From Fragilaria crotonensis (Eukaryota; Bacillariophyta; Fragilariophyceae; Fragilariales; Fragilariaceae), in the NCBI GenBank assembly GCA_022925895.1, contig JAKSYS010000175.1, positions 31,643-95,642 of the forward strand: a stretch of 64,000 nt of DNA. The letters are read 5' to 3'. A program made the translations under genes and the position numbers. Under the pieces are notes generated by a model. The model was not told where the DNA came from. It searched no databases and saw only the letters and a program-made list of their open reading frames with translations. Positions 3,217 to 62,035 of this stretch are shown here, one piece after another. Within the stretch, counting starts at the first letter, position 1; every line of letters begins with the position of its first letter.

Positions 3217-5237
3217 ATGAAAGCGCGCTCGTGGCTCATTCCATCTCTCCTTGTTGCGGTTGTGGCCGCCGAAGGAGATTATCGATGGGGCCGCTGGAAA
3301 ACAAAACAAGAAACTGAGGCGGAGTTACTTGCATCTGTTCGAGAGGAATCTGCAGCTGTCTACAGATTATTGGAATCAGACCTCTTGCTCAGTATGCCAT
3401 CAGCGCAGCCGGCATTAGCCCCAACGAAGCCTGTTGTTGCGCCAACAACCGAACCCACAAGCGTAACGACACCCCCCCTCCTACACTCTTGAGAACGCCT
3501 GCGCCAACGCCGGTACCGACACTCCTACCAACACCCGTGCCAGCACCCATCCCAGCACCCGTCCCAGCACCCGTCCCAGCACCCGTCCCAGCACCCGTCC
3601 CTGCACCCGTCCCTGCACCCGTCCCAGCACCCGTCCCAGCACCAGTCCCGGCACCCGTCCCTGCACCAGTCCCCGCACCCGTCCCTGCACCCATCCCAGC
3701 ATCCATGCAGCCGACGGAAGCTCCCGAATGGATCTGCGTCAAAGGCTCCGACCCCGATCCCAACAAACCTGGCAACGACCTCTTTGCCCACAGAAAGCCC
3801 GACAGACCCACCCGTACAGGATCCAACCAGTCAGCCGACGCCACCGCCATCCGAAGCACCGACACCACCACCCACATCCCCACCGATTTCAAAGGCGCCA
3901 ACCGCGGCACCAACAGCAGCACCTACGACCAGAGCACCAACCGCGGCGCCTACGACAAGAGCACCAACGTTCGACCCAACTACTCGAGGCCCAACAAGTT
4001 GCAGTGGTTTGACAGCAAACGAGCGAGAACTCGCAATATTCGATGTCTTGAGTGATGTTTCACTTCCCGAAGACATTGTTGACAGGTCGTCAGATCAAAA
4101 TGTGGCCTTTAATTGGGTGGTTTACAGAGATGCAGCGCAAGTTTGCCCCGACGAGATTTTGAATGTGACTCAGCGTTACATTCTGGCACTACTCTACTAT
4201 TCGACTAATGGGGACAACTGGCTCAAATGCAACTCGGCAAATGCGGATGTGGTAGCGGATTGTGGTGGAGCTGGAGGGAGAACCAGATTCTTAGATGAGG
4301 CGAACGTCTGCCTATGGTATCTAAATGAGTGTGACGGAGATATCTTGACTTCAATTACGCTTGGTAAGTTCGGAGATGTCACAATTCACTGTCCAAACGA
4401 CGCAATCTGACTTTTCTCACACCTTGAATTTTGGAAACAGACGAGAACAATCTTGCTGGGACAATCCCTAATGAAATCGTATCGCTTAAGGGACTTCAGA
4501 CCTTTGACATTGATAGCAACAAAGTCGTTGGAACTATTCCTAGCCAAATAGGGACGTTGCCGAAACTCCTGACGATAGATATGGACTCCAACTCCTTGAC
4601 TGGGACAATCCCTGAAAGTCTGTTCGGATCGTCATCTCTCGTAACAGTCGACGTGGATTTCAACTCATTGACCGGAACATTAGCCACCGAACTCGGGACG
4701 ATCACGCGCCTTAATATTCTCTTGTTGGAGGGCAACAAATTAGAGGGAACCATCCCAACAGAATTCGGAGATCTTGAGCTGCTGGCCTACCTTACTTTAG
4801 CGGACAACGCATTGACAGGCACGCTTCCCTCGGAGATCGGTCAGCTGGGGGAGTTGCGTAAGTTATCTTCTGTAATGAATCTTGGGTCTGCATCGAATCC
4901 GAATATCTAACTTACTTTTCCTTTCTTTTTTGCAGTGGCAATCACAGTACACAATAATGACCTTGACGGCACAATTCCAACGGAGCTGAGTCAAAACACT
5001 CGACTTGAAACCCTTTCTTTGTACGGAAACAATTTCGAGGGTCCAATTCCATCCGAGTTGGGCTTGATTACAAGTTTAGAACGATTACTCCTTCAGTTGA
5101 ACGGATTTACAGGAACCATGCCAGCCGAAATCTGCGCCCTGAGGAACCAGAACCTATTTCAATTGATTGCCAACTGTGCCGGAGACAACCCTCCCGTTGT
5201 GTGTCCGCAACCGTCCTGCTGTACTCTTTGTGTGTAA
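3217..5237 (+). CDS. Secreted Pro-rich stalk plus leucine-rich repeat protein (reading frame disturbed)
   Basis: The start at 3217 gives a signal peptide (MKARSWLIPSLLVAVVAAEG). A Pro/Thr/Ala stalk follows, then a cap region with YYSTNGDNW and VCLWYLNEC, then about eight plant-type LRRs of the form L..N.L.GTIP.E.G, and a Cys-rich tail ending CCTLCV. Introns 4364-4440 and 4858-4935 have GT-AG ends and restore the LRR frame. This is the extracellular LRR architecture common in diatoms; an adhesion or receptor-like role is inferred. Frame 1 is interrupted by TGA at 3490-3492, just after a run of seven Cs (3472-3478). The PAPVPAP repeats then read in frame 3, and frame 1 resumes near 3725. Two compensating indels, either assembly errors or real mutations, are the simplest explanation. 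Confidence 0.8.
3530..3712 (+). repeat. 12-bp tandem repeat coding Pro-Ala-Pro-Val
   Basis: About fifteen imperfect copies of CCAGCACCCGTC encode a (PAPV)n stalk in the LRR gene when read in frame 3. Repeats like this change length easily and are error-prone in assembly, which may explain the frame problem in the gene. Confidence 0.85.
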
Positions 5238-19300: not shown

Positions 19301-19737
19301 TGAATGAATGATAGTGACTACCGGTAGACAAGCTCACCTTGGATCCTTGATTGCTCCATGTCGTTGTCTTACTGTACTGCAGTAATACTGTATGCGTATA
19401 CTGTACTATTCTGTGGCTTGCGTGAACGGAACCCCGGATTTCTCCTGCAGTGCTACCGAGCATTGCTTACAGAGACATCCAGTAAATTCATGTACAGCTG
19501 GTTTTCTGTTCTAAAATCCGGGCGCACGTCCCAGTATTAATTCTACGCTAGACCGATTTCACTGCCAATATGACGTCACGAGGGCGGGACTTTGTCGTGT
19601 TGGAAGCAAGGCTTCCACAATGAGATTTTCAAGCCGTCGTTTGCAACATTTCCATTCTAATCTATAGATTTACCTCCTGCAGTCACCTTCCTATGTAACT
19701 CAGTGAACCTACTGTTGGTGATAAATCTATAGATACA
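19301..19737. other. Upstream region of the transposase with a small inverted repeat
   Basis: No gene. A 14-bp inverted repeat around the palindrome ATCTATAGAT (19659-19672 and 19722-19735) sits directly before the transposase start codon. It could be a hairpin or an end-binding site; this is not proven. Confidence 0.5.
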
Positions 19738-22700
19738 ATGGTTGACAAAGGTAAATATGCTATTTTGACTGATGCCGTCATGCTACTTCGAACAGACATC
19801 ACGTATGGTCCGAGATTGTCAAATTGCTGGCTTCCTGCATCAACTTGGGCTGAAGCTTTAGGGAGATTTGATGTCAATGCGTCCCTTGGCGTCATTGATG
19901 TAAGAAGGTTCAATACAGGGATGTCCAAGTCGGCTTCTTTCGGAGAATTGATGCACCGATTTGATGGATCAAACACAACAGGAGTGTTCAGAGTCACATA
20001 CAAGAACACATTCTATTACTACTTCACAGAGAAATCAAGGCAGATACGGTACCCATGTCCACTTAACAGTGCATGGAACGAAAAAGTAATGGAAGCAGCC
20101 GCAAATGTGCTAGTCATTCCAAGCACAAGATCAAGACCCGCTCTCGACACAATGATAACTACACCTGTCAACACGGAGGCTACAACGGGAGGAAGGATCG
20201 GAGACATTGTTGAGCAATCACCGAGCAAACGAGCAAGGATAGGAGATACTGGTGCGGCCGCTGTAATGATTGCTGCTGATGCTTCTAGCTCAAGTTACTG
20301 GCCATGTAGCCCAGAGGCATACCGAGTGTTCAAACCACCAAAGAAACATGGGACAACGAATTGCGAGGATGGGAATGATACTGATTTCGATTCTGAAACT
20401 CCAATGGAAGCACTTCAGAGAAGGATTGTACTGCTTCAAAGCGTTCATGAGGAAGAAAATAATTGGAGGAATGTTGTGCAAGGTAGAGATATCGACAACG
20501 TGTGTACCAAAGCTGAGATATGCGCTGTCAGGCAAAGGGCGACGTTTCTTTGTTATGCGTACCGATTGGCTCTTGCAAAAATGAATGAATGGACGTGGCA
20601 AGACTGTTGCACTGAATCTTGTAAGGTATTGAACACTGTTGGTATGACGCAAGCAACCTTCTATAAAACCATCGCAAATTGGAACATTGTGTTCCGTAAT
20701 TTTGAATGCTTCCCAAACCCAAACTTGTCTGTTCAGTGTGGGAAACGACCTCTTCCTCGAGTTCTCGAAGTGTTTCCATGCGCAAAGGAGCAGATTGTTG
20801 CATTTGGCGTCGAGAACTTGTCACATCTTTCAATTGAAGCAGTCTATCAATTCGTTCATTCGTCTGTAATCCCAAGGCTGGCTGCGTTGTGGAAACGTGA
20901 ATCGGTAGTAGACGAAGATACTGCAGAAACGTCAACATTGAGTACAAGTACTACAGCCATTAATCCTACTAGCAATCCTGTCGATGTCGATCAAGATGAG
21001 GATGATATTGCGCTATTCCTTCGCGCACATAGACTTAAAAACATGAGCTTCACAACAGCATGGCGCTGGATGCGATTACTCGGATTCAAGTATGATACGA
21101 GAAGGAAGAGCTTCTACGTCGATGGCCATGAACGTGAAGATGTTGTCGCACATCGAAATGCATTCTGCAAGAACTACCTTACCGTGCTTGAGCCACGTTG
21201 TCGGCGTTGGATTCAGCTTCCACTCAGTGAAGCTGCTACGATCAAGACCTTAGACACAGATTTCGGACATCATTACTATGATATTATATCTGATGAGACT
21301 CGGGTTGAGTTTCACGTTGACTATTGGAAGAATTGCATATCAAGAATCAAAAGGGAGAAGAGGCAGCGCGAGATGTTGAAGCAAAAACAAGCATACGAGT
21401 GTCATCATCAGTCAGGCCCTTGATGATTATTGGTCAAGATGAGTCTGTCTTCGCGCAGTATCTACTGTCCTCCAAACAATGGGTTGGGCCAAAGGACAAG
21501 TGCCACTTCTGCCCAAGTCGGAGGGCGATGGGTATATGCTTTCTGCGTTCGTGTCACGCGAATTCGGCTTTGGCAGGCAGATGACAGAGGATGAGTTACA
21601 AAGAGTGAATATGGCAAGGCAAACAGCAGCTCTCGGCGGTGGAAATTACCTCGATACAACAGCTGCGATGGAAATCTTGGGAACAACGAGGAAGCCGATT
21701 TTGTTGGAATCCCCTTCGTAAAATACTTGTTCATCGGAATCAATAATCAGGGTTATTGGAATTCATACCACATGAGTCTTCAGCTTGAGGATGTGGTTGA
21801 TTGCCTACGAATCCTATATCCAAGCTTCGATTTTGTATTTTTGTTCGATCATTCTCAGGGACACGCTCGCAAACGTGATGGTGCACTCAGTGCGATCAAC
21901 ATGCAAAAGAACTTTGGAGGATCAAAACAGCAGATGAGAGACACAGTCATAATGTCACAAGAGGGTTATCTGGGCACACACTCACCAACCCTGGGCATCG
22001 GAGACACACAGTCAATGGTATTCAATACTGACGACTGTGGCCCATGGTATTTGACACCAGAGCAACGTGACTTACAACGTCATGATCGAATAATGGGGAA
22101 AAGAAGCAAGCCAATTGAAAAAACAAAGAAGACCCTTCTTGAAGAGCTCAACGAAAAGGGTGTGACGCTCCAACAAAAACGCGGGTACACTAAAGCCGAA
22201 CTTCAGGAATTGGCAAGAAACAATTCAATCGAAACTCACAAAGAAGTCGACAAAATCCTATCTGGATGGGAAGGAAAATCTAAAGGCATGCTACAAGTTC
22301 TGTGGGAAAGAGGACTGATTGATCCAAGTGAGTTAGATAAATACACTGTCGACGGAAAGAAAGACACAATTTCAGGAAGATTGACTTACGGTATTCCCTA
22401 CGCCATCTCATCGCAGAGTGTGCTGATTTCAAGGATGAGGAAACGGCACTTCAGTACCTTGGATCTCAGCTGGGCATCACGGTACTTCTAACACCAAAGT
22501 TCCATGCCGAATTAGCAGGGAAGGCATTGAATTTTGCTGGGGTCACGCAAAGGCTTTCTACCGACGGGTTCCTGTATCTCAAAAGAGGGACGAGAGAATT
22601 TCAAACAACTTGTGAGAGATTCAACGTGTTCAATCAAGGAGTTGACCAAAGAAAGGATGGGAAAGTTTGCTTCGAGAGCACGCGCATATATTTGTACTTA

Positions 22701-38254: not shown

Positions 38255-38760
38255 CTATCGTAATATGACATAGTCGGATGAAAACTGATGTACGTGCATA
38301 GAAATGAAATGCATCTTAAACTCACATACTAGCGTACACTGTATGTGCATTCCACTCTGCTGGTTTTGTGATGTAGACGTGGTCGGCTTGATGTGTGCTA
38401 GATTCGTTGTAGATTCGTCTTGTCTAGGTCATGCATAGGTGTGGACACGGGCACCCTGCATCCCAGTGCACATATGTCATTTATGTGTGCTCGTGCTATG
38501 TAAAAACTAGTATGTCATATATGAAATAATACGCCATGTGCCATGTGGTATTCATATCTCGCTTGTGCACCCTATCACATATTGACATTTGCACAATACT
38601 ACGTCATCGAAGAGAATGTTCACAGCTTGTTACCTTTCGAATCCTTGTACAGCGCAGTACGGTACCTACATCAATCGTGTAAAAAAGATTTTGGATCGCT
38701 TGCCATTTAGTCGACTCACTTTTTGATCGATCACAAATCGAAAAGGAAGGAGGTATTCAC
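38255..38760. other. Upstream region of the transporter gene
   Basis: About 500 bp without a supported gene. Contains ATGTCATATATG-type words. No promoter element can be named. Confidence 0.4.
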
Positions 38761-41700
38761 ATGATGGGGACTTCCTCATTCTTCTCGTTGCTTGGCAGTG
38801 GATCAGCGCTGCTTTATCAGCAGTACTCGGAGGACTACGGTCATGACAGCCGACAACTCGAGTCGGAGGCCCCAGTCTGGGAGGCGGTCGTTGTGTCCAT
38901 AGCAATCTTCGTCATGTTAGTTGTCATCTGTACGGACTACATCGGGCCTGACTGGGTAATGGTTGCAACCAACACGCTATTCATGGCAACCGGTATTATC
39001 TCGGTAAAGGAGGGTCTTGAGGGTTTTTCTAACAACAGCATTTTGACTATCATGGTTTTGCTCTTGATTGGTGAGGGACTTGGGCGCACCGGTGCCCTTG
39101 ATTACTATATGAGCAAGATGCTGGGCAAGCCAAAAACCATTGTCGATGCTCAGATACGATTGATGATTCCTACGGGAATCATCTCCGCTTTCATTAGCAA
39201 CACGGCGCAGGTGGCTGTCATGGTACCTCTAGTTCTTCGCTGGGCACGGGCCACAGGTATTCCCCGTCAGCAGTTGATGATGCCCCTGTCGTTTGTAACG
39301 ATTTTGGGAGGGACTTGTACCTTGATTGGTACCTCAAGTAATCTTGTGGTGTCCGGGTTGTTGTCAGAGGATTTCCCAGATGATCCGGTTGGCAATATCG
39401 GGCTCTTTGACCTCGGCCTGATTGGTGTTCCGAACATGCTTATTGGGTTTATCTACATTGTGTTATTCTGTCCTTACTTGCTTCCATACGGTGATAGAAT
39501 CCCAAGCACTAATTCTGAACCTGTCTTGCTTGGAGCACGAGTGCCGTCGTGGTCGCCTTCTGTCGGTCGAGCGGTCGGAAAATCTGGGGTTAGTAATTCA
39601 GGTGGGATATATCTTGTCCATGTGCGAAGTGCTGCCACAGGTAACATGGAGAATGCAGTGAGCAAAGACTTCGTTTTGTCTGTTGGCGATGAACTATATT
39701 TTACTGGTTCTGTTGAGGAGTTCGCAGTTTTCTGTGAGAGGCATGGTCTGGAAATCATTACCACCGAGGAGCTTGGCTTGGGTAAGGAAATCAATGACAT
39801 TGGAACCACTTTGCGATCGATCGTAACTTCAGATGATTCAGCACTTCATGAAGTTATTGAACATTTGTCGGAGCAAATTGCAGGACGTGAACCGGTGGAG
39901 TCTGGCTCACGTGCAACTCGAGTGATTGTCACAAGTGACGTTTCTGACACTGAAGGAGGATTAGTTGTTGGTGTTGATTGTGTTGACCGTCCCAGACTTC
40001 TCGAGACGATTTCCTCAGCTCTTCTTCAAGTGGGACTAAAGCATCGCAATTCCGGTGCAGCGGTATATGGTGAGAGATCACTCTCGATTTGGCGTTGCGA
40101 ACCTTCTGAATACGCTAGTGTTGAACGTGTTGACGTGTGGACTGTCTTAACCGATTCATTGAATGAATCAATCCAGGCCGCAGGGGAGACGAAGAGTGGA
40201 ACCCACGTTGTTCGAGCAGTTGTCACGAAGGGTTCAACTTTTATTGGTAAGCAACCTGGTAGTGTCGATTTCCGCGATGCATACAAGGCAACAATTGTTG
40301 CATACCAGAAGGAGGGGAAGAATGCCTCACTGGACTCGGACATGGAGGCAGATGATGTCTTGGTGCTGCAGGTGTTGGCAGACTCTCCGCTGCTCCTAAG
40401 GCCCCCTCAAGGATTTTACAAGGCCATGAAACGTGGCTTCCTATCGCGACTTTTTGGTTCGGCGTCTACAACCTCACTCCCGCACGATAGTGGCGATAAA
40501 GACTATGATGAAATCCAGAAAGTCTGGAAGGATCTCAAGGTAGTATTTGAAGACAACGATGAGTCGGACGGAGATATTGATACTAATGGAGAGTTCCTTA
40601 CCGCCTTCGTCGTTACCTATAATTCTCCGTTGGAGAACAAGTCGACCAACGAACTTGGCTTTGGTTCGTTAGCTGGCGCTGTTCTTGTCAGCATTGAAAG
40701 AAATGATTACAAATCCGCGGATGGTGCAAGCCGCGAGGCGCTCTCTCCGAATGACCGATTGACAGTGGGGGACATCCTTTGGATTTCAGGTTCCGGGACA
40801 TCTATTGCTGGCCTTCAGACGATGCGAGGTCTTGAGTACTTTGAGATGGATCAAGTCAAGAAGGCTGAACGCATTTTGCAAAATCGAAGATTGGTTGAAG
40901 CTGTTGTCGCAAGAGGATCGCCATTGGTAGGCAAAACGGTGACTGAAGCATGCTTTCGATCCGTGTACGGTGGAGCCGTCATTGCCCTGCAACGAGGCAA
41001 CGGACGAGTCCATGAGCATCCCTCCAATGTCAAGCTTGAAGCGGGTGATGCATTGCTGATTCAAGCAGGACCGTCTTTCTACAAACACAACCACAACAAG
41101 TACAAAACGTTTGCTCTTGTATCTGAGGTTGAAGACTCAAGTTCGCCGCGTCCTCGGTGGTTCCTGCTATGCGTCCTCATGATTGTTACAATTTTGGTTT
41201 TGGCTAGTCTTGAAATCAGTAACTTGCTGATCACGGCCACTATCGTTGGAATTGTCACGGTTGGTCTCGGTGTCGTGACTCAACAAGAAGCCCGTGATTG
41301 TCTCCAATGGGACCTCTACCTAGTCTTGGCTTGCGCATTTGGAATTGGTACGGCGATGGAAAACTCAGGTGTTGCTGAGGGTCTGGCAACTTTTATGGTC
41401 GACATTTCTATTGCCCTTGGAGGTGAGTGTCTTTCTGCTGAAATCGTAGTATTTGAATGCAGCGCCTGACTTCTCACTTTTTTTTTTGAGTAGACGTTGG
41501 GGTTTATGGAGCTGTGTACTTGGCAACCATGTTGTTGAGCAGTATTTTGACCAACAACGCTGCGGCTGCCCTGATGTATCCCATCGCCATGGCGGCTGTG
41601 GAGCAAACTGGTGCCGACCGCCTCAAGATGGGATACATGGTGATGCTCGCAGCCAACGACTACATGACCTCGTTCGGGTACCAAACGAACATGATGGTGT

Positions 41701-48729: not shown

Positions 48730-48960
48730 TCTCTTGTTCTTTTGATGGTGATGAATGGATGCTTCACAAGCAGTTCAAGGTCAACAGAGGGCCCCCCGTG
48801 CACAGTCCTTCAACTGGTAGACCTGCTACTAGCTAGTATGCACACTGGTTTTCGGGTGTACTGGAGTACAAGATACCGTACTGCTAAATGGTATGTACCG
48901 CTACGACGTACGCTGAACTAGTAGAGGACGCAAAACACTGTAAAAAAACACAGTCCACAG

Positions 48961-49404
48961 GAGTCCTGCACTGGGTACCCATACCCAGTACCCACCCACT
49001 ACCCACCCATACCCATGGTTAATGGGTGGGTATGGGCATGCCCAACCAGTGGGTGGGTGGGTATGGGTGGTCCAAACTCCACTGAGCAAACCGTGGGTGG
49101 GTAATGGGTGGTCTAACTGCCCACACGAATCGACCAGTGTACTCTGAGTATACAGCTAGTAAGGAGTAGTAGAGTATAGTACACGGTGAGAGCAACTTTT
49201 AGAAACATAGCCTGCGGCGGGCTAAATTTTGCAGGGAAAATGGGTACTGGGTGGGTATGGGTACGGCCTACTAGCGGGCGTGGGTGGGTACGGGTGGTCC
49301 AAGCGTGACCGCGCGAAGCGTGGGTGGGTCATGGGTGGTCCAAGCCTGCCTACCGGTAGCCTTGGGTACCCATGGGCACAGGCGTCATACCCGGTGCAGG
49401 ACTC
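48961..49404. mobile_element. 444-bp GGGTGGGTATGGG-rich MITE with terminal inverted repeats and a flanking 10-bp duplication
   Basis: GAGTCCTGCACTGGGTA at 48961-48977 is matched in reverse complement at 49388-49404 (16 of 17). Directly outside on the left is CAGTCCACAG (48951-48960); the same 10 bp occurs on the right at 49407-49416, two bases beyond the end. A 9-10-bp target duplication plus inverted ends is typical of Mutator-like (MULE) elements. The interior has two arrays of (C/G)-rich ACCCACCCATACCC and its complement, including a palindromic centre near 49017. No coding potential. Confidence 0.6.
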
Positions 49405-49656: not shown

Positions 49657-50507
49657 CTAATGAATGTATCCACTGTTGGCATACTCATGGAGGGCTTGTC
49701 CAAGAGGCTTGAAGAAGATTGGAGTCTCATCAATGACACCAATCTTTGAGACAAACTCTTGCACCGCAAATGCGGTGATGGCAATCATAGCGAGACGTCC
49801 ATTCTTCAATTCCTTAAGTTGCATATCCATCTGTGCCTCGCGCTCCTTGGGGTAGAGTCCTAATGGATCAAAACCCAGGTTGCCCGCAAAGTATTCAGGT
49901 GAGTTGCTGCGAGCTCGGGTGATTCCGTAAAAGTCAATGGCACCAGCAACGAGAAGGACACCAACCCAGTATGCCGGAGAAACCTTTCCGAGACCTCCGT
50001 TCAAGAGGGATGGAGCGCGGTCACCGGAATCAACGAGTGCTGGGAGACCAAAGAGAGCAGCAGCCTTCTTGTCCCAGAGTTCAGAGAGAGGCCATCCTGC
50101 AGCAGCCTGTGAAGAGAAGTGAAGTACGCAAAAGAGTCAGAAATTGAGAACACAGAAATAGTTGTTCGCAAACCAAACACCACAATTCTCACTGATCTAC
50201 TTACCAGCATAGCAAGACGGGCGTGCTTGACTTCCGCCTCACGGAAGTTCATAAGGTCTTCCTTGGACTTGGAGAAACCGAAAGGATCGAAACCAACGTC
50301 GCCCGCAAGCGTACCGTCAAGAGCAGCCGGGCGAGTCAAGAACGGCAATGCTTGCGACATTTTTGGAAGCGCAATCACAGGCTCAACAACAACAGGCTCT
50401 TCCTCGGCAACATCCGCCATCTTGAGGGTGGAGACAGTGGCCTTCGTGGCGGGGGAGGTGAAAGCGGAAGCAGATCCGGCAAGGAGGATGAATGATGCGA
50501 TCTTCAT
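49657..50507 (-). CDS. Fucoxanthin-chlorophyll a/c binding protein (LHC family)
   Basis: Exon 1 is 50507-50205, a GT-AG intron is 50204-50107 (98 bp), and exon 2 is 50106-49657; 250 aa. The N-terminus [22 protein letters not shown] has the ASAF motif (cleavage before Phe), which targets the diatom complex plastid. Helix 1 has [25 protein letters not shown] and helix 3 has [22 protein letters not shown], both carrying chlorophyll-binding Glu/His/Asn and Arg residues. The mature protein is a thylakoid antenna binding chlorophyll a/c and fucoxanthin. The subfamily (Lhcf, Lhcr or Lhcx) is not assigned. Confidence 0.95.
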
Positions 50508-51856
50508 TGTTTCTTTACTTGGACGATGTGTTGCGTTTCTGGTTGTCGAAGTGACTGCTTTGTGAGAATATTAAGAAAAGAGAAGACTTATAATTCTCGA
50601 CAACAAGAATTCGTCTTGCATCCACTGCACGTGACTGACGCATCGTAGTAGCCACGCCAGAAATACTCTGTGCTGTCGTGCCTATTACATTGGATCCCCT
50701 ATCGTCCATGTCATATATGGCATATGGCGGATACTTGGACAACTTCGCGGATCAATGCTCCGGTGGTCTGCTGTGCTGTCGGCTGTCGGACACGTAGTCA
50801 AATGTTTGCGGATGAGTCACTTGTCGCTCCCGTAATACGATTGTTTTTCACTGCTGACCGCTGAATTAAACACTCGGACGAGATGCAAGCGAAAAGCTAA
50901 CACGCGTGCGCATGCAGTGCATGCAGGTATGTTTGGGTTCACTTGAAATCGTTGGTGGTAGTAGAGTACTGAGTACTGAGTACTTGTACAGAGTAGATAT
51001 GTCTATATGAGTTCCTACGCATACTACATATCATCATACAAGAATATATGTGATACAGTACCAGGTACCTTGTATGTATAATGTATAGTACAGCAACGCT
51101 CCTACCGTGGAACTCCGAGTGCAGTACATGATACTGTAGTACCAGGTACAGTACCAGGCACCCATGCAAGAATGGAACAGATACGAACATACGTCATAGC
51201 ACGCAGCACTACCACGTACATCGCAATTGTACTGGTACTGGAGTTACAGTATTGGAATACTGGTACAGGCCTAAACAGTTCATCTAAAGCTACGAGCACA
51301 TGAAGACGTGAAACAGCATCGCACACTTTGCTTTCGGGTGCGCAACGGTATTCTTGAATCGGACAAAAGGACGTCCGTAAACTCGAGAGGACGGATCATG
51401 TATAAGGAGAGTGCACCAGAATATTCGAGTGCTGTTCTTAGTGATAGTGTCCGCCCTTTGTATTCTCTTCGTGTATCCACATGCCACCTGCAACGCATAA
51501 CGCACAACCGACGCCGACCAAGGTCACATTATGGTGAGTCTCCAAATTCAACGGCAAGGCGTCCCACAATACGTACGCTTCAGTGATCACGCACTCCAAT
51601 CACCATGGTATTCTCGAATGATGTTGACATTTGTGTAACTTGTGTCGCTGACAAGCCGCCGAAACTTCCGCTGCGAGAAGAGCTGGTCAGCTTGGGTGGA
51701 GGTTATTTACAAGGCAGCTGGCGTTGGAGTTGACGCTGTACGTCGTGAGTCGAAACGACAGGTCAGGAATACCGAGAACAGATCCAGAGGAGTAAGTCCG
51801 TACCGCAGCTTTCACCTGAGAATGATGAAACCCCTGAACAGGAGATACAGTCAAGA
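50508..51856. other. Divergent intergenic region between the FCP and ankyrin-like genes
   Basis: 1.35 kb. The 50930-51260 part is unusually rich in AGTAC, GTACC and GTACTC words. From about 51606, coding-like sequence (MVFSNDVDICVTCVADKPPKLPL) leads toward the next gene and may be a 5' exon of it. Confidence 0.5.
50628..50633. promoter_or_regulatory. G-box-like CACGTG upstream of the FCP gene
   Basis: CACGTGAC followed by TGACGCATCG lies about 120 bp upstream of the FCP start codon. G-box and TGACG words bind bZIP/bHLH factors and are found near light- or CO2-regulated diatom genes. This is suggestive only. Confidence 0.25.
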
Positions 51857-54800
51857 ATGCGACAGCGGATGATTGAGAGGGAGATCTATAAAAACAGGAG
51901 TAGTCTTACGTATGAAGCGTACTCCCGCCGACTTAATCGACAGAACAGTTCTGACTCGGACTCCTTGGACAGCCTTAACAGTGTTCCAAAAATTGGCACC
52001 CATTCTAGAGTACCTGAGAGCGGAAATGACACGCAGGTGGGCGTCGCAACCGAGGAACGAGAAGGCGCAGGTTCGCCAGTGACAGAACATCAAGATTGGC
52101 GGGTTCAAGAAAATGCTCAACAAGAAGTTGAAGACGAAAAGTGTGTCGACGCTTGCATGGCTCCAGCTCTTTCACCCTCCAAAAGCGAAATACTCTCAAA
52201 TAAGCCTCCGAATTCTCCTCAGACAGCAGCGACATCGCCGACTCCTTCGCATACAAGTTTCGGATTCGGAAGCAATGGCGACGACATGGTGTCGCCTCTC
52301 AATGATGACGACAGTGTTGGATCCACAATTGGAAAGGATGATGGGAAGGTGCTGGTTTCGGGAACTGGAATTCGATGGTGGTATCAACAACAAGATGACA
52401 TTCCGGAGCCGAGGACCCCACAAGTGGCGCGTGCTGAAGAGGCCGACACGCACGGTTCTCCCCCACTGATATCGATCCTATACAGCGAAGAACGGAATGA
52501 TACCCTTTCAGGTCCTGCAACGTCTGAGCCTTGCACAAATCGAGGGACGATGGGATCGTCATGTTGTTCGCACACTTACAAGACACTTTGCGGATGCGGT
52601 GCCCACAAAGAGTTGCGCGGAGGAACTGGCGTGGACAGTGCTGGGGACCCAATTGTGGAGTGCACCGGAAGCGTTCCAGTCTTGCAGGAAGCTTCGTCTA
52701 CGCCTGTTTCTGCTGCAGACGCCGATAAAGCGTGGCTAGTGTGCAATTTCGCGGAGGTATGCGGGAGTCTCAGCCAAGTGCAGAACGATGAACCTGCTAA
52801 TTCAAAGACTTCTGAAAGCGCTACAGTGATGTCTGACGGCACTGATGTCATCTCCAACCGACGCATGGACATCGATTTAGTGATTTCCGATCGTTCATCT
52901 AGTACAGACGAGAGTGGTGTATCTCAATCTCCTACCGATGAGGGTAACCATGTTGAAAACGAAGGAACCGATGTGGGCTCGTCCTGCTCATCGAATTCAT
53001 CAGCAGAATCGGATGCAGAAGCATCAACTACATCATCTGATCTCTCTCAGATAATCACCATGCCAGAATACTCATGTTTATCAGCACCAAACAAAGGTGG
53101 TGAAGCCAACGTCATTAATGGTCGAAGATCAATGCGTCGGTTGTTCACTTCGTTGTCACAAGCTGTGGTTTCGATCGCTGATATTCAAAAGCAGTTTGCC
53201 GAATCGCCTGCTTTAGCCAGGGCGATGACTACTTACGATGGGAGGCTAGCCCTTCACGTGGCTTGCGAGCGAAATCTTCCAGATCGATTCAGCGACAGAA
53301 GTGTGACTCTCATAAAGAAGACGCTCGACATGCTCATTATTGACATAGTCGATTGGAGGTCTATCGTTAGTGCAGTGATGGCTTACAACGAGGAGGCATG
53401 CATGAATGTCGATAGAAAAGGCGACCTTCCTGTACACATTGCTGCGAGGCGGTTGATTGAATGGGAGGGACAATGGCGGACAAGGTTTGCAGGCATTGGC
53501 GCGATGGACGAGGACGATGCCGATAAAATCGACGCCATGTATCGCGAAATGAGTCGATGTGTTGAAATACTTCTGGATCCCATTTTGTCCTCGAACGATT
53601 TGTGTCAAGAGGGAGGCAGTGTTGGTAGGATTCTGCCCTTGCACATAGCATGCATTTTCACACTTTCATCTGACAAGGCAAAGGCACTGCTTCACACGTA
53701 TCCTCGGGCAGCTGGAGTCCCGTGTATCCTCACTGAGCTTCTGACTCTGATTGAAGACAATGCGTTTCCGATAGAACTTCTTGAACGAGAGCGAACGCTT
53801 GGTACGCTAGTGAAATCAAATCTTCGACGAAGTGACGTCGAGGCAGATGAACCGACTTTTTCAGATCATCTGCTTGCCTTTTACCCAAGTGTACAACCGT
53901 TTTGTTCGGATCCTCACAGACTTGCTCGACTTGAGTATATGGTTAAGACAGCAGCTCGTCAACTTCGGAAATCAAAGACGATCGACGACAGCTCAGCAAT
54001 CGATCCTGCGGCCAAGTCTGCCTGGGTTTGGCTTTGTACTTCTGGTGGTGAAGGTGAAACCGGAAGTTGTGCCATGAACGTTGCCGAACTTGTCAACAGC
54101 CTAGAAATTGAAGAAGTTGAGCTTTTGGCAAACCTGGAAACGGATTCGGGGACTATCATGTCTATAGCATCTCACGAATGCACCACTATTCTGAAATCAA
54201 GACTTACAATGGGTTCTGGGATGAGCGACGTCTTTGCAGCCAATGACAACGCAGACCCAGGTACAATTTGTGTGCAGCCCAGTTCCTCCCCGCCTGATTC
54301 GACATTGACGGGTCTTACAAATAAACAGATCAATCGAAAGTCTGAAGCACAACCAAGCACAAAGGTATTTGGCTCGATGTTGAAGGTGGTTTTTAACGTC
54401 AGAGAAATTTCGCATCCCTCAAGTTTTATCATCCTGCCGTACAAGTTAGTCATTGGTGCGAATGGATCTCTCACTTTGGAAGATCCCGCGGCAGCGTCCA
54501 TGGCACTTAAGTTTGCCAAATATCTTTTGGAAATGACTCATCCATCATTCTTAGCACATCAGCTTGAGAAAAAGGCAATTCAACACGCGGCATACAAGGT
54601 ACCTGCTCATCAAATGGAACAGTGGACACTAACGGAAGAAAAACATCGAAACATCCAACGTGAGTTCATAGACGTTTATCGCGCTGGCCCTGGGTACATG
54701 TATCTGCTCGATGAGAAGGACAGCACACCTATCATAACTGGAGAAAAAGGGGAGGTATATTATCCGGTAAGGATTGAAGATCCAGTTGAGACGGTGAGAC

Positions 54801-56089
54801 GAATGATGTCGTTAATGCTGATGGGAATGATCCATATGAGAGGACGAAAATCTGTCTCTACGTTGGCCAAAACAATTATGGAGAGCGGGTTGTCTGCACC
54901 AGATGCCTGGGTGGCCACAGCTGAGACAATTCTTGAGCTACTCTCTAATGACATGGACGAAAATGACACAGTACTTAGCGAAGCCATGTCTTGCAGAGAC
55001 GACCTCGAACATTTTGTCAATGCTGCCAGAAGGAACAATTCACAACGACGGAGTAATACTACCGACGATGGATATGAATGGGTGGTAGAGCTGACACTGC
55101 TGAAGATAATCTTGGAACGTTCGGATATCCGTCGTTCATTCGCTGGTCTCGCACCCATTTCGATGCCGACGGGTTCAATCGTCTGGACAAAGAGCAAAAT
55201 TGAGTTATTGTCCCACGCAAAACAATGCTCGAGGAGTTTCGATAGCGACTCTCGTGCTGACACAGAATCATCTCTTTCGGATGACCTTCAATGTCTATTG
55301 GAAAATTCCAGCCCTGGCGAGAATGCGTGTCTCGCATTTGAGGCTATCGAAGGGGCAGAGGCAGTCGGCGGCGCTGAGCTACGCGAAACTATTTGTCCGG
55401 AAATTCCGTTACGCTCAACTTCGGTTTGCAGCGTTGAATCGTTGCAGTCTCTAAGGTCTATTGAGAGTGACGCTCTAGAACCATCGGATTCCCACGACAC
55501 ATTTGCGTCGCAAGATATCCAATCTGATGGCGCCAGGAATTCGCTAGTGCTGTCGGACACTGGCGAACTTGATCTTATCTTGCATGATAGTCCTGTGCAG
55601 GCAACTCTACCACCGCCCTCATATGATATTTCCGTGGCCCTATCCTGGCATTCATCTACCGATAGCAAAGGATCAAGCGAATCCGTCAGCTCAAGTGCGT
55701 GTGCTGCCAGACATGCATCGAGGAACTGGAGATACCAACTGGAAATGCAAGAAGCCCAACTTGAGCACATCCGGGACAAACTTGCTGCATTAGATGTGTC
55801 GGATGAAGATCAACTCTCGCTTCGCGGAGAAGCGTTGATTGATGATCTCTCACAGCACCTCGACAGGTACGATTTAACCGCAGCCACGGCATGCTATAAC
55901 GGTGAGACGAATGACCTCGATATAAAGGACGGAAAGGAAACAACGAAGATGCTTCTAACCAGGCTTTGCCTTCTCGAGGAGCGATTGCTCAGTAGAGAGA
56001 TTGAACTGGAACAAATCAAACTCGAGTTGCATAATTTTGAGATTGAAACCATAAGTCAGAGCAAGCAGTGGCATTTCAATATCAATTAA
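51857..56089 (+). CDS. Large protein with ankyrin-like repeats and C-terminal coiled coil, 1410 aa
   Basis: Single open frame from ATG 51857. The frame stays open upstream to about 51740 (SPENDETPEQEIQSR...), so the true start or a 5' exon may lie earlier, possibly near 51606. Residues 1-430 are Ser-rich and acidic with low complexity. Ankyrin-like segments follow: LALHVACERN (about 460), DLPVHIAARR (about 523), LPLHIACIF (about 592). A conserved-looking block, SFIILPYKLVIGANGSLTLEDPAAASMALKFAKYLLEM, then YMYLLDEKDSTPIITGEKGEVYYPVRIEDP, lies at about 850-970. The C-terminus is predicted coiled coil (EERLLSREIELEQIKLELHNF). No enzyme motif is visible. It is a scaffold-type protein restricted, as far as I can tell, to the lineage. 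Confidence 0.8.
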   Translation: MRQRMIEREIYKNRSSLTYEAYSRRLNRQNSSDSDSLDSLNSVPKIGTHSRVPESGNDTQVGVATEEREGAGSPVTEHQDWRVQENAQQEVEDEKCVDACMAPALSPSKSEILSNKPPNSPQTAATSPTPSHTSFGFGSNGDDMVSPLNDDDSVGSTIGKDDGKVLVSGTGIRWWYQQQDDIPEPRTPQVARAEEADTHGSPPLISILYSEERNDTLSGPATSEPCTNRGTMGSSCCSHTYKTLCGCGAHKELRGGTGVDSAGDPIVECTGSVPVLQEASSTPVSAADADKAWLVCNFAEVCGSLSQVQNDEPANSKTSESATVMSDGTDVISNRRMDIDLVISDRSSSTDESGVSQSPTDEGNHVENEGTDVGSSCSSNSSAESDAEASTTSSDLSQIITMPEYSCLSAPNKGGEANVINGRRSMRRLFTSLSQAVVSIADIQKQFAESPALARAMTTYDGRLALHVACERNLPDRFSDRSVTLIKKTLDMLIIDIVDWRSIVSAVMAYNEEACMNVDRKGDLPVHIAARRLIEWEGQWRTRFAGIGAMDEDDADKIDAMYREMSRCVEILLDPILSSNDLCQEGGSVGRILPLHIACIFTLSSDKAKALLHTYPRAAGVPCILTELLTLIEDNAFPIELLERERTLGTLVKSNLRRSDVEADEPTFSDHLLAFYPSVQPFCSDPHRLARLEYMVKTAARQLRKSKTIDDSSAIDPAAKSAWVWLCTSGGEGETGSCAMNVAELVNSLEIEEVELLANLETDSGTIMSIASHECTTILKSRLTMGSGMSDVFAANDNADPGTICVQPSSSPPDSTLTGLTNKQINRKSEAQPSTKVFGSMLKVVFNVREISHPSSFIILPYKLVIGANGSLTLEDPAAASMALKFAKYLLEMTHPSFLAHQLEKKAIQHAAYKVPAHQMEQWTLTEEKHRNIQREFIDVYRAGPGYMYLLDEKDSTPIITGEKGEVYYPVRIEDPVETVRRMMSLMLMGMIHMRGRKSVSTLAKTIMESGLSAPDAWVATAETILELLSNDMDENDTVLSEAMSCRDDLEHFVNAARRNNSQRRSNTTDDGYEWVVELTLLKIILERSDIRRSFAGLAPISMPTGSIVWTKSKIELLSHAKQCSRSFDSDSRADTESSLSDDLQCLLENSSPGENACLAFEAIEGAEAVGGAELRETICPEIPLRSTSVCSVESLQSLRSIESDALEPSDSHDTFASQDIQSDGARNSLVLSDTGELDLILHDSPVQATLPPPSYDISVALSWHSSTDSKGSSESVSSSACAARHASRNWRYQLEMQEAQLEHIRDKLAALDVSDEDQLSLRGEALIDDLSQHLDRYDLTAATACYNGETNDLDIKDGKETTKMLLTRLCLLEERLLSREIELEQIKLELHNFEIETISQSKQWHFNIN

Positions 56090-56295
56090 ATCTGGCAGTG
56101 ATGAAAGTGGTGAGCACATTTACGGCCTTCGAGTCCGTAGCAATGAACAGTTTTGTTTCCCTCTACTCTAAATCTAAGATAATGCAGCACCGTGAAGTTG
56201 ACTCATCTTGGGTTTATTTATAGCTCAATACTATTTTCTGTAGGTCAACCCAACCCTCCCCGCCCCATGGCAGAGTAACCCTGGCCAGACGACCC

Positions 56296-58712
56296 TCATT
56301 CAGACATGGAAGCAGACTTCACACCGAAGTTGGCGTCATAAATCTTGACAGTGTTGACAGTATGAAGGCCTCGCACTCAGAGCTCTGCATGTAAGCCAAC
56401 ATGGCAAGCTCTTGCTGTTCGCGCTTGGTCAAGAACAAAGCAGGAGGGTCGCTGTTGTCAGGGTTGCACCCACGACAACGCTGCAGTCGCAAACGATGAG
56501 CAAAGCGAGGTGAGATGACGAGATGGTAGTTGAATGAGACGATTCCACACACGGCACCTCAAGCTTCGCAGGACGTCGTCCCAAGTTCGCCGATCGTCAC
56601 TTACCCAGTAGGTCTTGTATTTGAACGCAAAGGTGGCATCGAGAGCCGCAGCATCTCCCGGGATGACCTCTTCGGACTCGATGACAACCGACATGGAGCT
56701 GATTCCGTAGACCTGATCACGAATCGTTGAAGGCATCCATCAAGATCAAACGGCACAATGGGGTGGGTTCGGCATCCGCATTGTCAATCTCAATCATCAC
56801 TTCACCGTCCTCGACGCCCACGTTGTTGGCGGCAACATCGACAATCTTGGCAACTTGGGCAGTGACCTTGCTTTCAGCGCTGGTGCGAGGGTGCGGATGG
56901 AGGCACTGTCTTCAACACTCGCCGCATCATAAATCTTGACAGTGTTGACAGTATGAAAGGCCTCGCACTCAGAGCTCTGCATGTATGCCAACATGGCAAG
57001 CTCTTGCTGTTCGCGCTTGGTCAAGAACAAAGCAGGAGGGTCGCTGTTGTCAGGGTTGCACCCACGACAACGCTGCAGTCGCAAACGATGAGCGAAAGCG
57101 AGGTGAGATGACGAGATGGTAGTTGAATGAGACGTTTCCACACGGCACCTCAAGCTTCGCAGGACGTCGTCCCAAGTTCGCCGATCGTCACTTACCCAGT
57201 AGGTCTTGTATTTGAACGCAAAGGTGGCATCGAGAGCCGCAGCATCTCCCGGGAGGACCTCTTCGACTCGATGACAACCGACATGGAGCTAATTCCGTAG
57301 ACCTGATCGTACGAATCGTTGAAGGCATCCATCAAGATCAATCGGCACAATGGGGTGGGTTCGGCATCCGCATTGTCAATCTCAATCATCACTTCACCGT
57401 CCTCGACGCCCACGTTGTTGGCGGCAACATCGACAATCTTGGCAACTTGGGCAGTGACCTTGCTTTTTCAGCGCTGGTGCGAGGGATGCGGATGGAGGCA
57501 CTGTCTTCAACACTCGCCGCATCATAAATCTTGACAGTGTTGACAGTATGAAAGGCCTCGCACTCAGAGCTCTGCATGTAAGCCAACATGGCAAGCTCTT
57601 GCTGTTCGCGCTTGGTCAAGAACAAAGCAGGAGGGTCGCTGTTGTCAGGGTTGCACCCACGACAACGCTGCAGTCGCAAACGATGAGAAAACGAGGTGAG
57701 ATGACGAGATGGTAGTTGAATGAGACGTTTCCACACACGGCACCTCAAGCGTCGCAGGACGTCGTCCCAAGTTCGCCGATCGTCACTTACCCAGTAGGTC
57801 TTGTATTTGAACGCAAAGGTGGCATCGAGAGCCGCAGCATCTCCCGGGATGACCTCTTCGGACTCGATGACAACCGACATGGAGCTAATTCCGTAGACCT
57901 GATCGTACGAATCGTTGAAGGCATCCATCAAGATCAAACGGCACAATGGGGTGGGTTCGGCATCCGCATTGTCAATCTCAATCAACACTTCACCGTCCTC
58001 GACGCCCACGTTGTTGGCGGCAACATCGACAATCTTGGCAACTTGGGCAGTGACCTTGCTTTCAGCGCTGGTGCGAGGGATGCGGATGGAGGCACTGTCT
58101 TCAACACTCGCCGCATCATAAATCTTGACAGTGTTGACAGTATGGAAGGCCTCGCACTCAGAGCTCTGCATGTAAGCCAACATGGCAAGCTCTTGCTGTT
58201 CGCGCTTGGTCAAGAACAAAGCAGGAGGGTCGCTGTTGTCAGGGTTGCACCCACGACAACGCTGCAGTCGCAAACGATGAGCAAAACGAGGTGAGATGAC
58301 GAGATGGTAGTTGAATGTGACGTTTCCACACACGGCACCTCAAGCTTCGCAGGACGTCGTCCCAAGTTCGCCGATCGTCACTTACCCAGTAGGTCTTGTA
58401 TTTGAACGCAAAGGTGGCATCGAGAGCCGCAGCATCTCCCGGGAGGACCTCTTCGGACTCGATGACAACCGACATGGAGCTAATTCCGTAGACCTGATCG
58501 TACGAATCGTTGAAGGCATCCATCAAGATCAATCGGCACAATGGGGTGGGTTCGGAGTCCGCATTGTCAATCTCAATCATCACTTCACCGTCCTCGACGC
58601 CCACGTTGTTGGTGGCGAGGTCGGCTTTGGATGGCGCGTTGCGAAGGTAGACAGCCGCGACGGAGTCGACTGCCAACCCAATGGCGATGAACGAGGAGAG
58701 GATGATTTTCAT
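56296..58712 (-). CDS. Secreted protein gene made of tandemly duplicated exons
   Basis: The start codon 58712 gives a signal peptide (MKIILSSFIAIGLAVDSVAA). Exon 1 is 58712-58386; exons 58261-57791, 57667-57196 and 57072-56605 follow, then a last exon from 56480. Introns of 123-124 bp all begin GTAAGT and end TGCAG, and exon length is 471 nt (phase 0). Every junction joins ...KYKTYW to RCRGCNPDNSD. Each repeat contains FLTKREQQELAMLAYMQSSECEAFHTVNTVKIYDAASVEDSASIR and GVEDGEVMIEIDNAD...LCRLILMDAFNDSYDQVYGISSMSVVIESEE. The Cys-X2-Cys element suggests a disulfide-stabilised secreted module. Third and fourth exons carry net small indels (about 57467, 57262, 56888, 56719, and one near 56362), so the 3' half may be broken or misassembled; if the 56362 base were present the protein would end DANFGVKSASMSE at 56296. 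Confidence 0.75.
56313..58600. repeat. Tandem array of about 594-bp exon-intron units
   Basis: Four near-identical units, with intron 3' ends at 56480, 57072, 57667 and 58261 (spacing 592, 595 and 594). Identity extends through the introns, so duplication or gene conversion is recent. Confidence 0.9.
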
Positions 58713-59983
58713 GATGATCAATGTCGGAACTGTTGATAAGTTGGTTTCAGCTTTGCCTTTCTTGGAATTGTGAGAGGATGATTTACCTTCTTGGTGATCG
58801 ACGAAGATACGGCTGGCGTAGCACAATATTGATTCCTTAGTAGGTGTACCTCTGGATTGCTATTGTCATGCCGTAGCCCTAAGGTTGATGTGTACAACCT
58901 ACGAGGCCATTCCCATTTGGATGTGGGGATGAACTCCCTGCTGTTCGTGGTGGTTTGCGTAAGAGCAAATCGACCTTGGTCCGAAAGGTGTGCTGGTCAG
59001 ATTGACGAGGACGTGCTTCCTAATTGTAGACATCAAGAGGGATCCTACCTCCGCAATCGCATTTGGCATCGGAACATCCTTACTTAGGGGGCACTATGTG
59101 GCTAAATATTCGGTTCATATATTCACGATGAGCTTCTCTGAATTGATTGGCTGTTAATTGAGGACTGTTGTGTGAATGGGGAATCTGAAGTGGGTTTGAA
59201 TGCATGTAGATTGCTTATCATCTGAATAGCACGTTTCATATCTAAGATGCAGTCTTTGATGGGACTGCATGCTATTTAGTCTCACAGTCCGTAGGACGTC
59301 ATCAATCCTCCATACTGCCTACCATACTCCATACCATTACTTGGTCTGTCCGGAATCCGGAGCTTCATTCCGTTTTGAATTGCTACTTGCTACTGTCACC
59401 TCTCGTACTGGGACCACATTATTGAACAGTAGAACGGGAATTCAATTCGTATTGCTTCGCATTGGAGCGTCGTAATAACTCCAGTACTTGAGTGTGATAA
59501 GGGAGTAGCTGGTACCAATGTTCTCCGAGTACAAGTGTATATGATACATGTTGAAGGATAAAGAGTTGCAACATGATTACTACCCAGTACTAATCATAAG
59601 GGGCATGTGATAGTAGCAAGGATGAGATGGGACATTGAGTGTTCAAGAAGAGATGCGAAATCATGTTGCCAGCTCAGGTGTCATGTAGTACTAGCGACGG
59701 CGTTCCATTTCTTTCGATAGTATAACACATGACCTTGTTGGTATTGTTGGTTGGAATAATGTGTAGGGGAATAACAATGCCCACGCATGGGATTGATCTT
59801 GGAATGATCAAGACCTATTCTCTATTGCGCTGCAGTGGAGTCCGACAAATGCGTTTCACGCCCTTTGAAGTGTCGAGGAATGCAAACAGTCACGTCAAAT
59901 AATGATTCATAGCACTGCAGTAGAGGCCGCATATTAACCGTGAGTACAGCCCTAACGACACCCAGTGTCAACGATCGGGCCAT
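58713..59983. other. Intergenic, no gene seen
   Basis: 1.27 kb without a supported gene. Contains GTACCAGG / CCGAGTAC words. Confidence 0.5.
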
Positions 59984-61181
59984 TTACCGTTCCATGGCTT
60001 GTTTCAGGACACGCAAACCCCGAGTCAAGATAGATTGTCGCCATTTGGGGGTACGAGGATAAAATGCATCCCGAACTAGCTCAGATGGAATCCCCAAATG
60101 ATTGTGCATCATATTCTCAAGATGAGCGCCCGTCCCACCGTGACGACGGCATGGGTTCCGAATCTTGGGTAACATGCCAATCATGAGGCGACGAGAAGAG
60201 TGGTCGCATCAACATGTCAGTACTTCCCGTCATCAAATCGTATCCCTGGTGAACTTCATCTCCTCCTGTGGCTCCAGGAACGAGGGACTCGTTAAAAGTC
60301 TCCGCAACCGCGTGTCGCAAGGTCGATGGCTCTGACAGTGGGACCAGAATTGTATCCGTCCCGTACGTGCCCAAGCCGGTGTGGACGTCAACCCAAGTTG
60401 TTTTACCCACTGGGGCATGTGTTGTGAGGAAATTCTTACAAAAGTCGTAGAGTTTCTGATTGCTGGCTTCTAAATGTGTGCCACCATAAGAGATTCCATT
60501 TGCCTTGTGGTATTGGCCAGTCACCATGGCTTTCTTCAACTTCAACACTCCCTGTTCTAAAATGTTCTGAATGAACACTGTCATGTAACCAAAGCGGAAA
60601 GGCTTGACAGGATTGAAGACATGATCAAAGTCAACGTAGCCAGTAATGTTAGGATCCCGATCGATGACTTGAGAAAAATCGTGGATTCCGTTGCGATTCA
60701 AATCAACATTGTTCTCATTCACACGACGGTAGTGAGCCATTCCATAAGGATTGACGGCATGAACCAAGAGAATCGAAGGTCTCTTCGGCATGCCGTCATC
60801 GTTTCTGGGTGGTAAATTCTTGAGGAATGCAATCTGAATTGCAGACCCGGCATATCCTTCACTCCCATGGACGCCACTCGTGTGAACCACGAGGTCCCTA
60901 ACGTCAGAATTCGTTTCTCCTGGGATATAAGCAATGTCAGTGGTGTAATTCTGATAGATATCCAACGTGAATAATTCCGCACCAGCATCTGCAGCTGCTT
61001 TCCGAAACTTGGAGCGAGCGTCGATGTAGGTCTCGGAGAAGCAAGTGCAAGGGTCCACGGTACCGAATACAGTAAGCACTGTCACGTCTGATGTACAGGG
61101 ACTGTCGTCGGAATGAAAGAAGTACTTCCATCCGGCAGCGACGGCGATTGCCACAATGGCTCCTCGGAACAGTAGAGACAT
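59984..61181 (-). CDS. DUF2817 / M14-like zinc carboxypeptidase-type protein, frameshifted near its end
   Basis: ATG 61181. An N-terminal hydrophobic anchor (GAIVAIAVAAGWKYFF) precedes the domain. Zinc-site-like segments VVHTSGVHGSEGYAGSAIQ (HxxE) and WVDVHTGLGTYG, with NLNRNG-type DLNRNGIHDF, identify the DUF2817 family related to M14 metallocarboxypeptidases. The 354-aa frame ends at 60117. The family sequence continues, but in two further frames: FGTHAVVTVGRALI (after VTQ), then LENMMHNHLG...VRDAFYPRTPKWRQSILTRGLRVLKQ ending at 59984. Both shifts fall at single missing bases in AA and TTT runs (near 60165 and 60125), so a sequencing error is likely and the real gene probably runs to 59984. 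Substrate unknown. Confidence 0.8.
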
Positions 61182-62035
61182 ACTTTTAGTTAAGGGCTGT
61201 GTGATGGTCGGAAATCGAGCCTTCGAAAAGGCACGCTTGATTGCGGATGTGAACGTCGAAGATTCGTGGCGACTGGCGAGAAATATTCATGACTTGATTC
61301 CATGGCTCACAACAGCTCACACCTGGTAGGATACCATACCATCCGTTAAAAGGGGCTTTCAACTTTGAACCGACGATAATTTCAGCATGATTCGACTCGA
61401 AATCGCGAAGAAAAGAGTCAAGCTTCGAGTACAAGTATCGACTACGATACAAAATTCGACCGGTACAAGATACTGGATTAATACAAGGTTTTAGACTAAT
61501 TTTGAAAAGAAAAAGCACTAAAATGGTCATACTACAGTCATAGTCATAGAGTATGTTTGTGAAAAATGACAATGAAAAGGAGGACTAGACTAGTACTCGT
61601 ACTATTTGTTATTGTGTAGTCCGAGTAGGTCTAGAATGTACAATGTGTGTAGATGTCTACAGAAATAGTCACTACTGCTGTATCTGCGGTACTCCAGTGG
61701 TTGTTGCAGTACTTGTGCAGTGTAGTTTTGCGCACGCCGATCTCTTTCTGCAACAATTCAGACGGAGTTGACACGTGCTTGAGGTAGGGAAAGTAGAAAA
61801 CAACGAGTGTATCCTCGTGGAGTTACGCCCTTCTTCCGCGAGTGAGCAACATACATAATGTCGAAGTGTATACTGATTTTCGACATCCGTTAATGCCTAT
61901 AGTCACGACGCTCGCCGCGACATTATCATTAGAACTATACGGCTCATTGCTATCAGCCATACCAGCTACATCAGTCGTATCGAACAGCCCTACCGAACTT
62001 GCACGTTTGCTCACTAGCTTCAGGTGTTGATAACA
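61182..62035. other. Intergenic, no gene seen
   Basis: No supported gene in this stretch. Confidence 0.4.

Follow-up and report, generated by a model that had tools for sequence, protein, structure and literature searches.

The gene described here lies on the minus strand of a 64,000-nt stretch of Fragilaria crotonensis DNA (contig JAKSYS010000175.1, positions 31,643 to 95,642, hereafter the window) and contains a homogeneous tandem array of four cores and three linkers, corresponding to three full units of 592–596 nt and one partial unit (56336..58610, minus strand). On balance, we favour the explanation that a modular gene, probably for a secreted protein, has undergone recent amplification or homogenisation of an intron-containing unit, and that the frame breaks seen in its exons 3 to 5 are most likely residual sequencing or assembly error. 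A unit of about 594 nt would have been amplified and/or homogenised to four cores by unequal crossing-over or gene conversion. An intact unit contains the intron plus 471 nt of exon, or 157 codons, so that every copy of this kind would add a 157-residue module and leave the frame undisturbed. The breaks would then be errors left in copies that escaped polishing, with real decay of the downstream copies as the next best reading. The repeat is real; a single long expressed gene is unsupported as assembled.

Each unit is composed of the A-half of a module, an intron of 123–124 nt, the B-half and a linker. In-register alignment placed the core starts at 58610, 58015, 57419 and 56827, with spacings of 595, 596 and 592 nt. 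Core 1 joins the family at 58610–58612, with scattered matches farther up, and core 4 departs from it after 56336. Beyond these borders, the sequence on either side (N-terminal flank and C-terminal tail) has clearly diverged from that of the linker. Either two diverged cores were already present in the ancestor and were homogenised later, or the linker came from another source. A chance repeat could be ruled out, the four cores of about 490 nt differing by just 12 substituted columns and 8 insertions or deletions (indels), linkers counted.

The splice signals are the same in all units. The four donors (first intron base at 58385, 57790, 57195 and 56604, minus strand) and the four acceptors (first exon base at 58261, 57667, 57072 and 56480) all form the junction TACTGG/GTAAGT...TGCAG/CGTTGTC, in phase 0 and at the residues W/RC. 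Introns 1 to 4 measure 124, 123, 123 and 124 nt. With gaps scored as differences, pairwise identity is 95.2–97.6% among the introns (six pairs) and 97.9–98.5% among exons 2 to 4 (three pairs). The near-identical introns of 123–124 nt, their phase and the common W/RC junction, all proposed in a first-pass annotation of this DNA, were thus verified at the eight sites. Its tandem duplication of exon plus intron, recent or homogenised, is likewise supported by the near-identity of the introns.

Differences between copies are few. Among the 12 substituted columns, 9 are private to one copy (4, 2, 1 and 2 in cores 1 to 4, respectively) and 3 are shared two-and-two. Substitutions are about as dense in the intron as in the core exon (4/124 versus 8/368 columns, P = 0.51), which fits both being young. 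Two of the shared sites unite core 1 with core 3 and core 2 with core 4; the third separates cores 1 and 2 from cores 3 and 4. These groupings are consistent with a possible duplication of a two-unit block or with conversion between units, three sites being too few to decide.

We next turn to the reading frame, for which a codon score was derived from seven coding stretches in this window and is given here for frame 0. Exon 1 (58386..58712, 327 nt) starts with an ATG at 58712, encodes a signal-peptide-like N-terminus followed by the first A-half, and is open (score +0.385). Judging by this hydrophobic N-terminal stretch, recognised by eye in the translation, the modular protein is probably secreted. 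Exon 2 (57791..58261, 471 nt; B-half, linker and A-half) is the sole internal exon open throughout, with a score of +0.389. The three following exons are broken as assembled, by five indels of 1–2 nt in all, called relative to the other copies of the unit. Exon 3 (57196..57667, 472 nt) carries a 2-nt insertion at 57467–57468 and a 1-nt deletion near 57266. In exon 4 (56605..57072, 468 nt), 1 nt is deleted near 56892 and 2 nt near 56719, and stops occur within the frame-shifted stretch. Exon 5 (56319..56480, up to the stop of the frame set by its own acceptor) has a 1-nt deletion near 56367. Taken as whole pieces in frame 0, exons 3, 4 and 5 score −0.205, −0.033 and −0.092, respectively, and in sliding windows the coding frame jumps within them.

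A message spliced as assembled would therefore read 358 codons and then stop inside exon 3, so that the single reading frame across five exons claimed by the first-pass annotation is not confirmed. The gene end that it placed at 56296 fails as well: the stop at 56296–56298 is in frame 2 of exon 5, and the frame entered through the acceptor closes at 56319–56321. As for its picture of a secreted gene growing by duplication, the duplication stands; growth is weakened by frame breaks in three of the five exons and by an indel excess that speaks for error or, less well, for decay. As the frame breaks may be assembly error, we limit our claim to a recent tandem duplication and do not extend it to a working coding variable-number tandem repeat.

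Intron 1 (58262..58385), intron 2 (57668..57790), intron 3 (57073..57195) and intron 4 (56481..56604), all on the minus strand, score negative in frame 0, and the coding frame resumes past each acceptor, weakly past the fourth. An unspliced reading, in which the GTAAGT...TGCAG segments would be coding, is accordingly disfavoured. Introns 2 and 3 have no stop in frame 0, and retention of intron 2 would preserve the frame, so that it could still occur in the message. An open reading frame of 316 amino acids at 57389–58339 illustrates the frame kept across intron 2.

The origin of the frame breaks was addressed through the proportion and the position of the indels. Indels make up 8 of the 20 differences between copies: five are in exons 3 to 5, one is in intron 2, and two are in intron 3, which shows 2-nt and 1-nt length differences from the other introns. 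In the diatom Phaeodactylum tricornutum, the rates per site and generation measured by mutation accumulation are 4.77e-10 for substitutions and 1.58e-11 for indels, a ratio of about 30:1 (PMC6604790). From the 151 nuclear mutations of that study, 146 of them tabulated as substitutions, we obtained by subtraction an indel share of 5/151. At this share, the probability of at least 8 indels among 20 differences is 1.3e-7. Higher shares were also tried, to allow for lineages or repeats richer in indels, and the probability rose to 0.0004 at a share of 0.10, 0.006 at 0.15 and 0.03 at 0.20. All 8 indels lie below 57791, downstream of exon 2, compared with private substitutions that fall 5 above and 4 below this point. 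In a bacterial study, polishing reads were described as preferring the error-free copy of a repeat and leaving errors in the others (PMC8812927). The clean first part of the array would fit such a bias of short-read polishing. Unpolished repeat copies, which fit the indel excess and placement better than neutral decay does, are most likely the source of the breaks.

Several observations weigh against this conclusion. Residual long-read errors are reported to be mostly homopolymer errors (PMC8812927); none of the 8 indels is in a run of more than 5 bases, and several are outside homopolymers altogether. A decaying array would likewise be clean upstream and broken downstream, and the significance of the indel placement (Fisher P = 0.029) depends on a cut point picked after the data were seen. 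The rest of the window offers a control that favours the conclusion, but a lenient one. A seven-state coding scan recovered same-strand frame switches at the introns of a 2-oxoacid dehydrogenase E2 gene and a light-harvesting gene, as expected, and four switches in the array, one of them at intron 1. Beyond the array, its sole switch without an intron was at 3835/3836, in proline-rich low-complexity DNA, and is probably spurious; long open frames elsewhere are unbroken (51749–56050 and 38710–41442, for example). The scan was, however, trained on frames chosen as open and missed a frame change in a neighbouring DUF2817 gene (60117–61286, minus strand).

In this gene, one frame carries the Pfam match as far as profile position 265 (coordinate 60234). 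Profile positions 320–340 are matched in another frame at about 60085–60023, corresponding to residues 35–55 of a piece starting at 60187, with a weak score (E = 0.056, 13.4 bits versus a cut-off of 23). The C-terminal part thus appears to lie in the other frame, at 59987–60234 on the minus strand. There would be no room for an intron, since the roughly 150 nt between the two matches are about what the profile itself needs. After the array, this frame change seems to be another, fainter hint of either a local problem with indels or decay. As the DUF2817 gene lies outside the repeat, its frame change seems to fit poorly with a cause confined to unpolished repeat copies.

If the frame breaks are real, amplification would have been followed by a frameshift in exon 3 that lifted selection on everything downstream, leaving exons 3 to 5 to decay. 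The product would be a truncated protein of about 358 amino acids, or the message would be degraded. This is the strongest alternative, and we regard it as possible without being probable. The early stop of the message as assembled, the confinement of all indels to the part downstream of exon 2 and the seemingly broken DUF2817 gene nearby are what would be expected from it. Neutral decay should nevertheless leave many substitutions for each indel, and the downstream part has just 4 private substitutions for its 8 indels.

Alternative splicing could in principle bypass the broken exons, the identical splice sites and common phase 0 allowing the exon 2 donor to be joined to the exon 5 acceptor in a 1-2-5 message. 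With unedited letters, this combination (319 codons) and 1-5 (162 codons) both reach a stop in exon 5; in the remaining 6 of the 8 combinations tried, which all include exon 3 or 4, reading ends within one of those two exons. Nevertheless, the 1-nt deletion in exon 5 shifts the end even of the 1-2-5 message, and introns so nearly identical offer no evident signal for skipping. We consider this explanation unlikely.

The copy number itself might be an assembly artefact, through false expansion or collapse of the tandem repeat, short near-identical units being difficult to assemble. Against this, private substitutions mark all four copies (9 columns in total, one or more per copy), and the flanks of the two outer cores are distinct; we consider such an artefact unlikely. 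Copy-number variation between strains is plausible. We give least credence of all to a scheme with genuine frame breaks, in which the array serves as a store of silent donor copies or of exons that can be skipped. The open first part would then be expressed, and crossing-over between units sharing one splice phase would reversibly alter how long the secreted protein is in different strains.

No known family or relative was found in the collections searched. The 266-residue product of exons 1 and 2 had nothing above cut-off in Pfam (best 18.5 bits versus 26) and no match in the PDB at E up to 10, and exons 1 and 2 taken separately had none above cut-off in NCBIfam (best 13.9 bits versus 96). 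Within the window, tblastn of exons 1 and 2 found the array only, apart from three hits whose E values were no better than 1.1. No relative was confirmed among viral contigs (11 stretches matching by pattern) or genome contigs (51 stretches), nor was one found in plasmids by protein search or in phages by DNA search; as these collections cover viruses, plasmids, bacteria and archaea, and not algae, the negatives say little about the family. A structured RNA was rejected, since Rfam gave no match in 56200–58900 (E up to 1) and none across the window when gathering scores were applied. AlphaFold2 prediction of exon 2 alone, without an alignment, yielded a mean predicted local distance difference test (pLDDT) of 52.7 and a predicted template modelling score (pTM) of 0.42, both too low for the model to be used in a fold search.

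This kind of repeat is already known. In the human LPA gene, the KIV-2 repeat of about 5550 bp includes introns, its exons are 98–100% identical and about 40 alleles are described (PMC7613587). The array is of the same kind, with head-to-tail, near-identical units and an intron inside each. As in LPA KIV-2, the unit combines exon with intron sequence and adds one protein module, and units differ from one another by small indels (PMC7613587, PMC11462820). It differs from KIV-2 in its unit of about 594 bp with one intron of 123–124 nt, and in a protein that shows no known relation. The first-pass annotation had contrasted this array with tandem exons elsewhere, said to diverge in their introns; KIV-2 shows that statement to be too general, even though the KIV-2 subtypes differ at more than 100 intronic positions (PMC7613587).

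Tandem exon duplication in general is well documented (PMC9013439, PMC1553488), and our case shares with it an internal tandem duplication of coding sequence. Unlike the mutually exclusive exon choice described in PMC9013439, there is no sign of exclusivity here and the duplicated block starts and ends within exons. Dscam-type arrays (PMC4835542) similarly consist of one-phase exons flanked by alike introns. In contrast to the diverged alternative exons of that type, exons 2 to 4 are almost the same in sequence and, of these three internal exons, two have a broken frame. A choice among such near-identical copies would therefore create almost no protein diversity. Our literature search found no diatom precedent for such a repeat among the matches listed, judged by title and the start of the abstract.

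Introns were also read in three other genes of the window: 71 nt in a CitMHS transporter gene (ends GTGAGT/TAG), 97 nt in the 2-oxoacid dehydrogenase E2 gene (GTATGT/CAG) and 98 nt in the light-harvesting gene (GTAAGT/CAG). The array introns are thus of the ordinary kind for this window, and somewhat longer. The light-harvesting gene (50001–50570) matches Pfam PF00504; its best PDB matches are LHCI and ACP chains, with fucoxanthin chlorophyll a/c proteins also represented among the 60 of 179 matches listed, which suggests an alga whose plastid is of red type, most likely a diatom. Downstream of it, at 48900–49400, short motifs resembling GGGTA/TACCC are abundant. On the plus strand, two successive long open frames at 19699–22491 look transposon-like by eye, neither reaching the Pfam cut-off, and a 12-bp tandem repeat (CCAGCACCCGTC, 14.5 copies) is found at 3528–3701 within long proline-rich open frames.

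The simplest effect of repeating the module, if the protein is secreted, would be a longer extracellular protein. Should the downstream exons turn out to be open, the array would carry a caution for draft genomes, in which unpolished indels can make tandem coding repeats resemble pseudogenes. Unequal crossing-over between strains could then be conveniently measured at this locus, which would also be a compact algal case of a protein gaining 157-residue modules by means of an intron-containing repeat.
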